64,000 bases of DNA, taken from contig NZ_JAAKXW010000001.1 of the NCBI RefSeq assembly GCF_011752045.1, positions 682,001 to 746,000 on the forward strand. Reading direction: 5' to 3'. The notes beneath the pieces were generated by a model. It had not been told where the DNA came from. It saw only the letters and a program-made list of their open reading frames with translations, and made no database searches. Of this stretch, positions 45,137 to 50,248 are shown piece by piece. Position numbers and translations under genes: made by a program. Position 1 is the first letter of the stretch; each line of letters opens with the position of its first letter. This DNA is from Microbacterium hydrocarbonoxydans (lineage in GTDB: Bacteria > Actinomycetota > Actinomycetes > Actinomycetales > Microbacteriaceae).

Positions 45137-45610
45137 GTGACCGCTCTTCCCGAACGCAGCCTGCTCGTCAAGCAGCATCTCGCCGAGGCCGGCATCGACA
45201 CCGAGATCCGCGTACTGCCCGATTCCGCGCGCACGGCCGTCGAGGCCGCCGCGGCGATCGGATGCCCTGTCGCCGCGATAGCGAACAGCCTCGTCTTCCT
45301 CGCTGACGGCGACCCGGTGCTCGTGATGACCAGCGGCGGCCACCGCGCCTCTCTCGACACCCTGGCGCGCAGCATCGGCGCCGCGGAGGTCGTCATGGCC
45401 CCGGCATCCGTGGTCCGCGAGGCGACAGGACAGGCGATCGGCGGCGTCGCCCCCGCCGGGCATCCCGCTCCCCTACGCACCTACATCGACGAGGCTCTCG
45501 AGGAGCACGAGGTGATCTGGGCGGCGGCCGGTCATCCGCACACGGTCATGCCGCTCACCTTCGCGGGCCTGCGGGCGCTCACCGACGGCGAGGTGATCTC
45601 GGTCACCTGA
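45137..45610 (+). CDS. YbaK/EbsC family aminoacyl-tRNA deacylase
   Basis: Protein of 157 residues with the YbaK/ProX editing fold, which hydrolyses mischarged aminoacyl-tRNA. CPVAAIANSLVFLADGDPVLVMTSGGHRAS, with the conserved lysine position replaced by Ser/Asn, and GQAIGGVAPAGHP are typical. The GTG at 45137 starts it. The amino-acid specificity cannot be told. Its end is ten bases from the convergent serine hydrolase, with no clear terminator between. Confidence 0.88.
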   Translation: MTALPERSLLVKQHLAEAGIDTEIRVLPDSARTAVEAAAAIGCPVAAIANSLVFLADGDPVLVMTSGGHRASLDTLARSIGAAEVVMAPASVVREATGQAIGGVAPAGHPAPLRTYIDEALEEHEVIWAAAGHPHTVMPLTFAGLRALTDGEVISVT

Positions 45611-45620
45611 GCGTTCGCAT

Positions 45621-46721
45621 TCAGCGCGTCACGTCCCCCAGCAGTCCCATGATCTCCGCCCCCATCTCGACCTGCGTGAGCACGATCCGGAACGAGCCGT
45701 CAGGGTCGATGTAGAAGTCAGTACCGAGCCCGCCCGACCATCCGTACCGCCCGGCGTGCGGCCCGTCCGTCTGCATCATCACGCCGAACCCCCAACCGGC
45801 GCCCTCCCAAAATCCGGGAAAGAAGCTCTCGGGTGTCTTGACGGCGGGCGGAACCTGGTCGGATCGCATCTGGGCGAGCAAATCCGGCGCGAGGAACTCC
45901 TCGTCCTCGTGTCGGCCGCCGGCCGCCAGCATCCGCGCGAACGCGGCGTAGTCCGATGCCGTGCTCACGAGTTCCGAGTGACTGACGTCGAACGGTGCCG
46001 GGGCGACGGAGAAGCCGCCGGCCGCGGGCTCGACCTCGACAAGGCCGCCGGTCACGTGGTGGCGATGGGCGGCAGGCAAGCGATGCGCCTTCAGAAGCGG
46101 CACGGTGTGCCCGCTGTCGACCATGCCGAGCGGATCGAACAGATCTGAGGCGAGATGCCCGGCGAGGTCGCCGCCGACCAGTCGCGAGAGCAGGATGCCG
46201 AGGATGCCGAAGGAGTGGTGATATCGCCAGCCCTCCCCCGGCTGGAAGGCGAGCGGCAGCTCGCCGAGCGCCGCCAGCCAGTCGTCTGCACCGAGCCTCA
46301 CCGGTTCTTGGCCGGCCTCCGTGCGGTTCGCAGCCATCGCCTCCTGCAGCGGGCCGGGTTCGGTCATCACCCCGTACCCGGACATGTTCGTCAGCAGATG
46401 GCGCACAGTGATGGGCGTCTCTGCCGGCACGGTGTCTTCGAGCGGGGATGTCGTCGTGCGGAGGACTCGACGATCCGCCAGCTCAGGCAGCCACGTCTGC
46501 ACCGGATCGTCGAGGTCGACTCGTCCGGCTTGGACGAGTCGAAGCGCGGCGACAGCGAGCACCGGCTTGGTCATGGACTGGATGCGTACGATCGCGTCCG
46601 CCCGGAGATCACCGGCCGTGACGATCTCGATGGCGCCGTCGGGCGCACCATCCACGCCGATGATGCCCGGCGCGGTTCCGCGGCTGACGTGAACCTCGAG
46701 GATCTCCTGCAGTGTGGCCAT
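45621..46721 (-). CDS. Serine hydrolase, class C beta-lactamase family
   Basis: Beta-lactamase/PBP4-type hydrolase of 366 residues. The SxxK motif is SMTK in IVRIQSMTKPVLAVAALRL (about 48-51). The Tyr motif is in NMSGYGVM, and the third element is in YGWSGGLGTDFYIDPDG. No signal peptide is visible, so it is probably an intracellular esterase or peptidase and not a secreted beta-lactamase. The region just upstream of its ATG holds a 73-nt hexamer microsatellite (46744-46816) that could affect expression. Confidence 0.9.
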   Translation of the reverse strand: MATLQEILEVHVSRGTAPGIIGVDGAPDGAIEIVTAGDLRADAIVRIQSMTKPVLAVAALRLVQAGRVDLDDPVQTWLPELADRRVLRTTTSPLEDTVPAETPITVRHLLTNMSGYGVMTEPGPLQEAMAANRTEAGQEPVRLGADDWLAALGELPLAFQPGEGWRYHHSFGILGILLSRLVGGDLAGHLASDLFDPLGMVDSGHTVPLLKAHRLPAAHRHHVTGGLVEVEPAAGGFSVAPAPFDVSHSELVSTASDYAAFARMLAAGGRHEDEEFLAPDLLAQMRSDQVPPAVKTPESFFPGFWEGAGWGFGVMMQTDGPHAGRYGWSGGLGTDFYIDPDGSFRIVLTQVEMGAEIMGLLGDVTR

Positions 46722-46743
46722 GGAGCACTCCGTCCCGTCAGGT

Positions 46744-46816
46744 CGGCTTCGGCTTCGGCTTCGGCTTCGGCTTCGGCTTCGGCTTCGGCTTCGGCTTCGG
46801 CTTCGGCTTCGGCTTC
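46744..46816. repeat. (CGGCTT)12 microsatellite
   Basis: Twelve perfect hexamers plus one base, without interruption. It lies 22 nt upstream of the serine hydrolase start on the minus strand. The repeat is open in all frames on the plus strand (Gly-Phe or Arg-Leu runs), but no ribosome site or homologous protein supports coding. In the hydrolase frame an in-frame TGA precedes it, so it is not part of that protein. Confidence 0.95.
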
Positions 46817-46860
46817 ACCGGAACCCTAGCTCAACGGGTCCGCCTGCTGAACGCGGACGC

Positions 46861-46897
46861 GAAAAAGCCCCGGACTCTGGCGAGAGAATCCGAGGCT
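46861..46897 (-). terminator. tRNA-Lys terminator with T-run
   Basis: On the minus strand AGCCTCGGATTCTC pairs with the AGAGTCCGGGGCT side (one or two mismatches), followed by TTTTTC at 46861-46866. It lies seven bases downstream of the tRNA. Confidence 0.85.
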
Positions 46898-46903
46898 GTT
46901 CCG

Positions 46904-46976
46904 TGCACCCCCAGGGACTTGAACCCTGAACCCACTGATTAAGAGTCAGTTGCTCTGCCGATTGAGCTAGAGGTGC
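46904..46976 (-). tRNA. tRNA-Lys (anticodon CTT)
   Basis: 73-nt tRNA. Acceptor GCACCTC pairs with GGGGTGC (one G-U), discriminator A. D arm AGCTCAATCGGCAGAGC, anticodon stem ACTGA/TCAGT with loop CTCTTAA, and T arm CAGGGTTCAAGTCCCTG. CCA is not encoded. Confidence 0.97.
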
Positions 46977-47124
46977 GTGGCCTGGGGAATCCCCCGGCCG
47001 AGGAATTACATTACCAGCCGATCGACCCCACGCGAAATCGAGGCCGAGGAAGAGCGACCGCCGCGCGTGTCGCCATGCGTCATGCACTCCGGAGCCCGTC
47101 GCTTCCGCCGACTATCCTGGGAGC

Positions 47125-47922
47125 GTGACCGCCTCCCCCCGCGTCGACGATCTCTCCGACGACCTCGCCCTCGCCCTGCGTCTCGCCGATGCGGCCGATG
47201 CCCAATCTCTGCCGCGCTTCGACAGCGCCGACCTCGTCATCTCGACCAAGGCGGACAACTCGCACGTCACCGACGCGGACCTCGCGACCGAGCGCGCGAT
47301 CCGTGCGGTCCTCGCAGCCGAGCGCCCGCAGGACGGCATCTTCGGCGAGGAGTTCGGCGCCGAGGGCGACACGCATCGCCAGTGGATCATCGACCCGATC
47401 GACGGCACCGCGAACTACCTCCGAGGCGTGCCGCTGTGGGGGACGATGATCGCGCTGGCGATCGACGGCGTGCCGCAGGTCGGCGTCGTGAGCATGCCTG
47501 CACTCGGGCGCCGCTGGTGGGCTTCCGCCGGCGCCGGCGCCTGGACGGCGACCGACGCCGGTCCCCGACGTCTGCGCACCTCGGCGGTGGAGTCTCTGGA
47601 CGACGCGAGCGTGAGCTTCCAGAGCATCGCCCAATGGTCGGAGTCCGGACACCTCGATCAGCTGCTCCGGCTCGCGGACCGCGTGTGGCGGGACCGCGCC
47701 TACGGCGACGTGTATGCGTACATGCTCCTCGCTGAGGGCCGGGTCGATGCGGTCGCCGAGTTCGGCGTCAAGGAGTACGACATCGCAGCCGCCGTCGCGA
47801 TCGTTCGGGAGGCCGGCGGCCGGATGACCTCCTTCGACGGCGTTGAGACGATCTCAGCCCGGTCGACGCTCGCCAGCAACGGCATCCTCCACGAGCCTCT
47901 GCTCGATCTGCTGCATCCCTGA
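47125..47922 (+). CDS. hisN: Histidinol-phosphatase (inositol monophosphatase family)
   Basis: Mg-dependent phosphatase of 265 residues. The first metal glutamate is in IFGEEFGAEG. The core motif WIIDPIDGTANY carries the Asp residues, and the last Asp is in EFGVKEYDIAAAVAIVREAGG. The length and the sequence NYLRGVPLWGTMIAL fit actinobacterial HisN, although a general inositol monophosphatase role cannot be excluded. GTG start at 47125. It lies alone, with a lipoprotein gene 22 nt downstream. Confidence 0.9.
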   Translation: MTASPRVDDLSDDLALALRLADAADAQSLPRFDSADLVISTKADNSHVTDADLATERAIRAVLAAERPQDGIFGEEFGAEGDTHRQWIIDPIDGTANYLRGVPLWGTMIALAIDGVPQVGVVSMPALGRRWWASAGAGAWTATDAGPRRLRTSAVESLDDASVSFQSIAQWSESGHLDQLLRLADRVWRDRAYGDVYAYMLLAEGRVDAVAEFGVKEYDIAAAVAIVREAGGRMTSFDGVETISARSTLASNGILHEPLLDLLHP

Positions 47923-48572: not shown

Positions 48573-49448
48573 ATGTCGATTCCGCCACCGCCGACGCATC
48601 CCGGAGGGGCTGCGTCACCGGAGCCTGAACGACCCGTCACGACGAGGCGCCGGCTCAGTCCGCTCGTCATCGCGCTGATCGCCGGATGCTGCGTGATGCT
48701 GGTCGCGACACTCGCGCTCGGCGCGACCACGCTCTCGCTGCTGGGCCCGGCCGCCGCGAGCGCTCCGCCGACGCCGACGCCGACTCCGGAATCGACCGCC
48801 GACAGCGGCGGCCGCACGCAGACGGTCCGCGGGATCGAGGTCGTGACCCGGTCGGACATCGAGTTCGGCGATTACGCCATGAGCGACCTGCGCGACGGGG
48901 TGTACACCCTCCTCGTCGCGCCGATGTCGTGGAGCGACCAGACGTCGGGCATCGATGCGTCGTTCGACATCACCGCGTACGACGCCGAGGGGCGCATCGT
49001 CAACCGCAACCCGGCCAGCACCTACATCCTCCCCGGGCAGGAGGGGTTCTTCCAGGGCATCTTCAACGAGGATCTGTCCGACGTGGTGCGGATCACGGTC
49101 GAGCAGACCCGGGTCGAGATCGGCCCGCCCCTGATGACCGGCGGAATCGAGCTGACGTACCCCGACACGCTGGGAAGCGACAGGCGGTTCTATGTCGGCG
49201 GCAACCTGACCTCCACGCTCAGCATCGCGCCGATCTCCCCTGATCTCTTCTTCGCCGGCTACGTCGACGGGGAGCTGTTCGGGTACTGCTCCGACATTCC
49301 GGACATCCCGGCCGGCGGCGAGTTCGTGTCCACGTGCGAGCTCATACCGGTCACGCGCGACGAGCACCTGCTGGATGACCGCATCCCGAAGGACGCCGAG
49401 TTCCGCGCCTACCTCGAGCTCGACCCGATCGCCCACGAGGACTACTGA
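48573..49448 (+). CDS. Membrane-anchored extracellular protein, paralog A
   Basis: Protein of 291 residues that I do not recognise. A Pro-rich cytoplasmic N-terminus (about 30 residues) is followed by one membrane segment (about 32-60), then a Pro/Thr linker (PPTPTPTPESTADS) and an extracellular domain. That domain shares a pattern with the next gene: a directly flanking VxxxTxxEF start, PGQEGFFQGIFNEDLSDVVRITVEQT, and a GYCSDIPDIP motif with a second Cys in STCEL. Its stop overlaps the ATG of the next gene by one base, so the two paralogs are made together. Confidence 0.78.
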   Translation: MSIPPPPTHPGGAASPEPERPVTTRRRLSPLVIALIAGCCVMLVATLALGATTLSLLGPAAASAPPTPTPTPESTADSGGRTQTVRGIEVVTRSDIEFGDYAMSDLRDGVYTLLVAPMSWSDQTSGIDASFDITAYDAEGRIVNRNPASTYILPGQEGFFQGIFNEDLSDVVRITVEQTRVEIGPPLMTGGIELTYPDTLGSDRRFYVGGNLTSTLSIAPISPDLFFAGYVDGELFGYCSDIPDIPAGGEFVSTCELIPVTRDEHLLDDRIPKDAEFRAYLELDPIAHEDY

Positions 49449-50248
49449 TGAACGACACCTCGCCCCAGGGGAATCGACTGCTGATCGCCCTCTCCATCGC
49501 CTTCAGCGTGCTGACTCTCACCACGATCGGCTTCGGCGTGTCGACGGTCGTCCTTCTCAACGGCGCGCACGGCGCCGTCGAGAAGCCCCTCCCCACCCCG
49601 ACACCGACCGCTGAGGCATCGGGCGAGACCACGACGATCGACGGCTTCGAGATCTCGGCCGCCACCGACTTCACGGTGGAGGAGGTCGCCCTGGCCGTGC
49701 AGGCGTACAACGAGCGTGCCAGCGTGTACGCCGTGCTGACCAATGAGAGCGGGGCCGAGGCGGCCTACGCCTTCTTCGACGTCACCTCGTACCGAGAGGA
49801 CGGCACCATCGTCGAACGGGGCCTCGACATCGTGTACGTCCCGCCCGGCGATTCCAGCATCCTGCAGGCCGAGCTCCCGGAGGACCTGAGCGAAGTCGTC
49901 TCCATCGTCATGGAGCAGACCGACATCGAATGGAGCGCCCCGGCGAACGGCGGGGGCGTCGATGTCACATCGATCGCGTCGACGAGTTCGACCGACCACG
50001 TGGAGGTTCAGCTAACCTCCGAGCTCGACACGGCCGCAGAGAACATCGACATCTACGTCTTCGCTCATGTGGACGATGAGCTGGTGGGGGTCTGCCACGT
50101 GTGGGCGGACATCCCCGCAGCCGACGGCTCGTTCGACGATCTGTGCGACTGGGCGCCGACGCCGATCGACGACCCTGTGATGGGCGACGAGATCCCCGAG
50201 GACGCCGTGTTCGACGCCTACGTGAGGCTGGAAGCACCGCGGGATTGA
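49448..50248 (+). CDS. Membrane-anchored extracellular protein, paralog B
   Basis: Protein of 266 residues, a diverged paralog of the preceding gene. One membrane segment (about 11-35), a PTPTPTAEA linker, then a domain with PPGDSSILQAELPEDLSEVVSIVMEQTDIEW aligned to PGQEGFFQGIFNEDLSDVVRITVEQT of paralog A. It has GVCHVWADIPAAD with a second Cys in DLCDW. The shared Cys pair suggests a conserved disulfide outside the cell. It ends just before a bidirectional terminator and the tmRNA gene. Confidence 0.78.
   Translation: MNDTSPQGNRLLIALSIAFSVLTLTTIGFGVSTVVLLNGAHGAVEKPLPTPTPTAEASGETTTIDGFEISAATDFTVEEVALAVQAYNERASVYAVLTNESGAEAAYAFFDVTSYREDGTIVERGLDIVYVPPGDSSILQAELPEDLSEVVSIVMEQTDIEWSAPANGGGVDVTSIASTSSTDHVEVQLTSELDTAAENIDIYVFAHVDDELVGVCHVWADIPAADGSFDDLCDWAPTPIDDPVMGDEIPEDAVFDAYVRLEAPRD

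Follow-up and report, generated by a model that had tools for sequence, protein, structure and literature searches.

Upstream of an esterase-like serine hydrolase gene of Microbacterium hydrocarbonoxydans lies a perfect array of twelve AAGCCG hexamers, which is probably a lineage-specific microsatellite grown by slippage within the 5' leader of the gene, neutral or weakly tuning rather than an on/off switch. The array was analysed within a 64,000-nucleotide stretch of the genome (the window), where it reads (CGGCTT)12 on the plus strand and (AAGCCG)12 on the minus strand. It sits between a tRNA-Lys with its terminator, on the upstream side, and the hydrolase, all on the minus strand. Following the direction of transcription, the features of the region are:

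46903-46976, minus strand: tRNA-Lys, anticodon CTT (tRNA call; Rfam RF00005, 1.8e-14)
46862-46896, minus strand: intrinsic terminator of the tRNA-Lys, GCCTCGGA...TCCGGGGC then T5 (core 46885-46868 predicted, extended by eye)
46846-46851, minus strand: weak -35-like TTCAGC, matching TTGACA at 3/6 positions, 17 nt upstream of TAGGGT (by eye)
46823-46828, minus strand: -10-like hexamer TAGGGT, the sole TANNNT on this strand in 46660-46910
46738-46818, minus strand: possible mini-ORF GTG-(AAG CCG)12-ACC-TGA, 26 aa, M(KP)12T (read from the sequence; putative)
46744-46815, minus strand: perfect hexanucleotide array (AAGCCG)12 (Tandem Repeats Finder and sequence)
46728-46735, minus strand: Shine-Dalgarno-like GGACGGAG, 6 nt before the ATG (read from the sequence; presumed role)
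45621-46721, minus strand: serine hydrolase ORF, 366 aa, ATG start (PF00144, Beta-lactamase)

The exact block of the array occupies 46744-46815. Tandem Repeats Finder, which includes a flanking partial unit, gives 46743-46816 with a period of 6, 12.3 copies, 100% matches and no indels. An earlier note on this DNA had placed the array at 46744-46816, which is right to one base, and 22 nt before the start codon on the minus strand, which agrees with the gap of 22 nt (46722-46743) that separates it from the hydrolase ATG at 46721. The longest perfect period-6 run in the window is 74 nt, compared with a maximum of 20 nt when the 64-kb window was simulated 200 times with an order-3 Markov model (median of the simulated maxima 15 nt). 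The array is therefore a perfect tandem tract longer than chance, as contingency loci have, and its length against the order-3 Markov runs rules out a chance origin. An assembly error seems an unlikely source, the 74-nt tract presumably being shorter than the common read length.

Within its own genome the array stands by itself. Only one array with four or more perfect copies of AAGCCG is present in the assembly (9 contigs; 9 overlapping matches). This count covered the whole assembly, and the survey of hexamer runs in general covered a 400-kb genome sample plus the 64-kb window. In these 464 kb there are five perfect hexamer runs with 3 whole copies and one with 12, the runner-up being a run of 23 nt. 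The sampled part of the genome is poor in such repeats and the array is unusual for this genome; it is an isolated outlier with nothing between 3.8 and 12 copies in 464 kb, a pattern not obviously expected from neutral slippage by itself. The view that twelve perfect hexamers are rare in a bacterial genome thus holds for this genome, where the next run has 3.8 copies, and less so across bacteria, since a scan for (AAGCCG)8 in the GTDB species collection, described as comprising 84,980 genomes, returned at least 117 stretches.

The hydrolase matches the Pfam family PF00144 (Beta-lactamase) at 2.6e-44 with 152.2 bits, above the curated cut-off of 27, in agreement with the earlier description of the downstream gene as a serine hydrolase. 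It contains an SMTK motif, which we take to be the SxxK-type motif of such a hydrolase. The solved-structure sequences nearest to it are mostly esterases that align over most of its length (7pp3, 4.1e-39; 4ivi, 2.9e-34; Est-Y29 4p85, 7.4e-31; 1ci8, 8.9e-19), and these four are presumably family VIII esterases of the beta-lactamase fold. By its sequence the hydrolase is a putative esterase of this fold. Beyond the tRNA-Lys lies an inositol monophosphatase-family gene on the plus strand (47125, PF00459), and on the other side an aminoacyl-tRNA editing-domain gene (45137-45610, PF04073) is convergent with the hydrolase. An Rfam scan of 46300-47300 found the tRNA alone above the gathering score, with two below-threshold matches that both fall on the tRNA, and a known RNA element at the array was set aside on this basis.

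In the hydrolase frame a TGA codon lies immediately 5' of the array and no ATG, GTG or TTG occurs between the array and the ATG, so the array is outside the enzyme. A longer N-terminus of the hydrolase, encoded by the array as Arg-Ser in frame with the gene, was rejected for the same reasons. The earlier expectation that the copy number could change without a frame change is borne out, as six-base steps outside the hydrolase frame cannot cause a frameshift.

From 46910 down to 46660 the minus strand has a single TANNNT, the TAGGGT between the terminator and the array; none occurs inside the array or in the 22 nt that follow it, and the density of TANNNT in the 400-kb genome sample is 0.47 per kb per strand. 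As this sole match lies upstream, the array is predicted to be downstream of the transcription start, in the 5' leader, where a change in copy number would alter the length of the leader and leave promoter spacing as it is. From TAGGGT to the ATG the distance is 101 nt, or 29 nt with the array removed. If transcription starts 6-8 nt after TAGGGT, the leader would be ~95 nt long, of which the array makes up ~72 nt, and ~23 nt without the array. To judge from the -10-like match, the most likely position of the array is within the hydrolase leader, between a putative promoter and the gene. A strict consensus promoter scan of 46600-47130 returned 0 promoter-like sites.

These observations bear on the mechanism put forward in the earlier note, a possible phase-variable switch in which changes in copy number would displace promoter elements. 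In its favour, the array precedes the gene, its length could change, and the placement of the promoter rests on prediction, as the consensus scan called none. Against this stands the position of the sole -10-like hexamer (46828-46823) on the upstream side of the array; for a promoter to straddle the array, either a non-canonical -10 or a distance-sensitive upstream binding site would be required. The claim that promoter elements would move is not supported on the evidence of this -10-like match, and a promoter-spacing switch, which we consider very unlikely, was given up as the leading view. The tract is not inside the hydrolase reading frame and, as far as the -10-like match places the promoter, not inside the promoter either, the two locations from which contingency loci act.

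A contingency locus could also act from the leader, through its length or its RNA, the copy number setting hydrolase mRNA level or translation in graded steps. The closest functional parallel is the AGAT tract of uspA2 in Moraxella catarrhalis, which by analogy shows that leader-length tuning is possible. According to PMC4679880, this tract in the 5' untranslated region varies from 6 to 23 copies depending on the strain, with expression highest at 18 copies in one strain, and PMC7302503 gives mRNA levels that differ by as much as 3.37-fold for another strain. As described there, the tract is, like the array here in its predicted position, a leader repeat before a start codon in which a change of one unit is frame-neutral. 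In uspA2 the tract lies between the transcription start and the start codon, a placement that fits the -10-like TAGGGT here, with 0 sites from the consensus scan. The species that carries uspA2 is host-adapted, the product is a surface protein, and both variation in copy number and an effect on expression are documented, whereas the present array has a six-base unit, precedes the gene of an esterase-like enzyme in a high-GC bacterium, and is known from its sequence only.

The Shine-Dalgarno-like GGACGGAG lies downstream of the array, between it and the hydrolase ATG. RNA folding of the predicted leader at the tested copy numbers between 6 and 24 gave mean unpaired probabilities of 0.19-0.24 for GGACGGAG and 0.65-0.67 for the ATG. 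Over 0 to 24 copies the ranges were 0.16-0.31 and 0.65-0.70, the predicted Shine-Dalgarno access varying more at 0 to 4 copies (0.16-0.31). In this model the folding of the ribosome site is nearly flat with copy number from 6 to 24. With predicted access to the Shine-Dalgarno site and ATG so nearly constant, slippage growth with little consequence would be the simplest account. A graded contingency locus in the leader is in our view unlikely, although it has in its favour a tract predicted to lie in the 5' leader, with 22 nt between it and the start codon, a repair background that may permit slippage, and the uspA2 precedent. In addition to the flat folding, it has against it that the product is an enzyme without a secretion signal by eye, which is atypical of contingency loci, that the tract is in none of the relatives examined, and that it is the sole AAGCCG tract of the genome with none comparable in 464 kb. 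A leader position with an effect on expression is possible.

The repair background was searched with the NucS_C and MutS_V profiles. A NucS_C match was found in the own genome, and the profile search gave no match to MutS_V there; among 14 control genomes NucS_C was found in 7 and MutS_V in 11, with Corynebacterium glutamicum in the NucS list only. According to PMC8228993, NucS does not correct indels, whose numbers are the same in its absence, and most short indels may be removed through the proofreading activity of the DnaE PHP domain. The presence of NucS_C and the lack of a MutS_V match mean that slippage may go uncorrected, so the background may permit it; DnaE proofreading, as given in the same review, weakens any claim of hypermutability, as it may still remove short indels. 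A drifting copy number of the array is plausible.

A further possibility is that the array is itself translated. The GTG at 46818 would start M(KP)12T, whose start and stop frame the array exactly and whose stop lies 16 nt before the hydrolase ATG, so that ribosomes finishing this length-variable peptide would feed or block translation of the hydrolase. In that reading M(KP)nT would change by two residues per step and never lose its frame or stop. In mycobacteria, according to PMC4633059, a transcript whose first codon is ATG or GTG is translated leaderless. The GTG is, however, only 4 nt past TAGGGT, compared with a gap of 6-7 nt in relatives that carry a TTGAAT (see below), a GTG before a six-base repeat easily yields such a frame by chance, and the relatives examined have no array and so offer no comparison of conservation. 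We regard a leader peptide as quite improbable. A fuller version is most improbable: here the variable-length M(KP)nT would be a slippage-tuned translated leader that terminates ribosomes beside the hydrolase Shine-Dalgarno site, the copy number would set a graded, heritable level of translation, and the absence of MutS-type indel repair would keep it mutable.

A match to the hydrolase at E <= 0.001 was found in 124 of 198 genomes of the genus, own included. In 27 of the 197 others the match has 53-75% identity over most of the protein, the next-best genome reaching 36%. For comparison of the upstream regions 30 + 30 hydrolase matches were taken, from which the weakest of the first 30 (L038 and L039, 35-36% identity) were left out, giving 58 loci. 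Twenty of the 58 were duplicates, 19 being the same place again (own included) and one, L233 (G364), being identical to L226 (G363), which left 37 distinct regions besides our own. No hexamer repeated three times was seen in the 70 nt before the start, as called by script, in any of 36 distinct regions, and direct reading of the 37th, L029, where the match is split, likewise shows none. The array is absent from all 37 distinct upstream regions examined, including that of G171, the one same-locus relative found. Twelve of the 36 (L011-L017, L021, L225, L228, L232 and L235), and L029 by direct reading, have a TTGAAT 6-7 nt before the ATG. This leaves no room for a leader and would make TTGAAT part of a probable leaderless promoter; the arrangement suggests leaderless expression in these relatives, unlike the Shine-Dalgarno-type start in the window.

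In G171 (L248) the tRNA-Lys is followed by a hydrolase of 70% identity, and on the other side the inositol monophosphatase gene and those following it have relatives as well. Between tRNA-Lys and hydrolase a GNAT acetyltransferase gene lies on the opposite strand (L248:6594-7121) and there is no array. A TATGGT occurs 37 nt before the hydrolase ATG, and its surroundings resemble those of TAGGGT by eye; a homologous leader was nevertheless dropped as an explanation, as the similarity is not significant. The alignment of the two leaders is not above chance, with 375 of 2000 shuffles scoring as well with one copy of the repeat and 699 of 2000 with no copies, as did 1547 of 2984 random 75-mers of the window. 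With no alignment of the leaders beyond chance, the comparison does not reveal the pre-expansion state. Elsewhere in the window (48573-50248), two adjacent plus-strand ORFs of 291 and 266 aa have no Pfam match at E <= 0.001. They match each other's G171 counterparts at ~33% identity and for this reason look like a tandem duplicate pair.

The gene order of G171 allows the array to be viewed as a rearrangement scar, marking the site where a GNAT gene between tRNA-Lys and hydrolase was lost. A GNAT gene follows the tRNA-Lys in three genomes of the genus (L248, L043 and L046) and not in the window, and the own genome has a 66% identical copy ~0.4 Mb away on the same contig (C1:315534-316034). A GNAT remnant was, however, not found in the window at E <= 0.001, and the comparison is compatible with either direction, loss here or gain there. 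We give this scenario little credence.

Thirty tRNA-Lys loci (own included) were viewed by eye. After the terminator they carry several kinds of gene, some common to groups of genomes, and with such differing genes the position looks like a variable site; a similar hairpin and T-run follows the tRNA-Lys at the other loci. In one genome (G021) a tyrosine-integrase gene (PF00589; L062:1734-2930) comes directly after tRNA-Lys(CTT), and L057 (G082) is alike by eye; in each of the two genomes the 3' part of the tRNA and the terminator are partially matched a second time ~9-13 kb away. This suggests that mobile elements of the genus use the tRNA-Lys as an integration site.

The array is a known kind of element, and repeats of its unit occur elsewhere in the genome collections compared, in which each species is represented by one genome. 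Five or more copies of AAGCCG were found in 16 of 366 genus genomes, own included. For the 15 others the first array of each was placed by crude gene calling: 12 are within a called ORF, and 3, with 5-6 copies, are not. Among 80 of the at least 117 stretches with (AAGCCG)8 or more, 62 fall in called genes, 47 of these in the Glu-Ala frame, and 18 fall outside, the gene calling again being crude. Fourteen of these 18 are away from the edge of the locus, and 6 of the 14 have a called start within 200 nt; the gene caller is too crude for a claim that intergenic AAGCCG arrays tend to precede gene starts. The longest array among the 80 has 41 copies and lies outside called genes in Streptomyces sp. 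NBC_01016 (L079, 5429-5674). Two genomes of the genus have arrays of the unit with 12 copies (L189, G068) and 11 copies (L190, G296) that read in the Glu-Ala frame, close to the end of open frames of 534 codons; these frames look related by position, each with a similar-looking downstream gene (by eye).

The DNA unit is in common with Glu-Ala (GAAGCC)n coding repeats. Unlike these, which are tracts in frame inside a gene, the present array lies 4 codons into a Glu-Ala frame that runs for 84 codons from stop to stop and in which no gene is apparent. PMC4679880, referring to Mrazek et al. (2007), places three Actinobacteria among the ten genomes richest in long simple sequence repeats with units of 5-11 nt, and describes units in multiples of three as likeliest in coding regions. 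Like the repeats so described, the array has a unit in this range and is longer than expected; unlike their multiples of three, which are said to favour coding regions, it is outside the hydrolase frame and in a sampled genome poor in such repeats. Judged by title, the literature search found no study of this array, and it found none joining Microbacterium, microsatellite and hexanucleotide.

Slippage growth within the hydrolase leader remains our preferred explanation. Replication slippage would have expanded an AAGCCG tract between the probable -10 TAGGGT and the Shine-Dalgarno site, just after the tRNA-Lys terminator. Six-base steps would then alter leader length alone, with promoter spacing, predicted folding of the ribosome site and the hydrolase frame constant, and any effect on expression would be mild at most. 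The parts of this account that we infer are the transcription start, the slippage origin and the absence of a strong effect. Counting against it are the uspA2 analogy, by which changes in leader length can alter expression, and the weak -35 together with the 0 sites of the consensus scan. The isolation of the array among hexamer runs, the chance-level alignment with the G171 leader, the larger variation in predicted Shine-Dalgarno access at 0 to 4 copies and the possible removal of short indels by proofreading also count against it.

As things stand, the array is chiefly a possible strain-typing marker. If its copy number varies and tunes the esterase, it would represent a contingency locus that works through the length of the leader, in a bacterium that has NucS and in which MutS was not detected, and, if true, the link between the repair system and microsatellite evolution would become directly testable.
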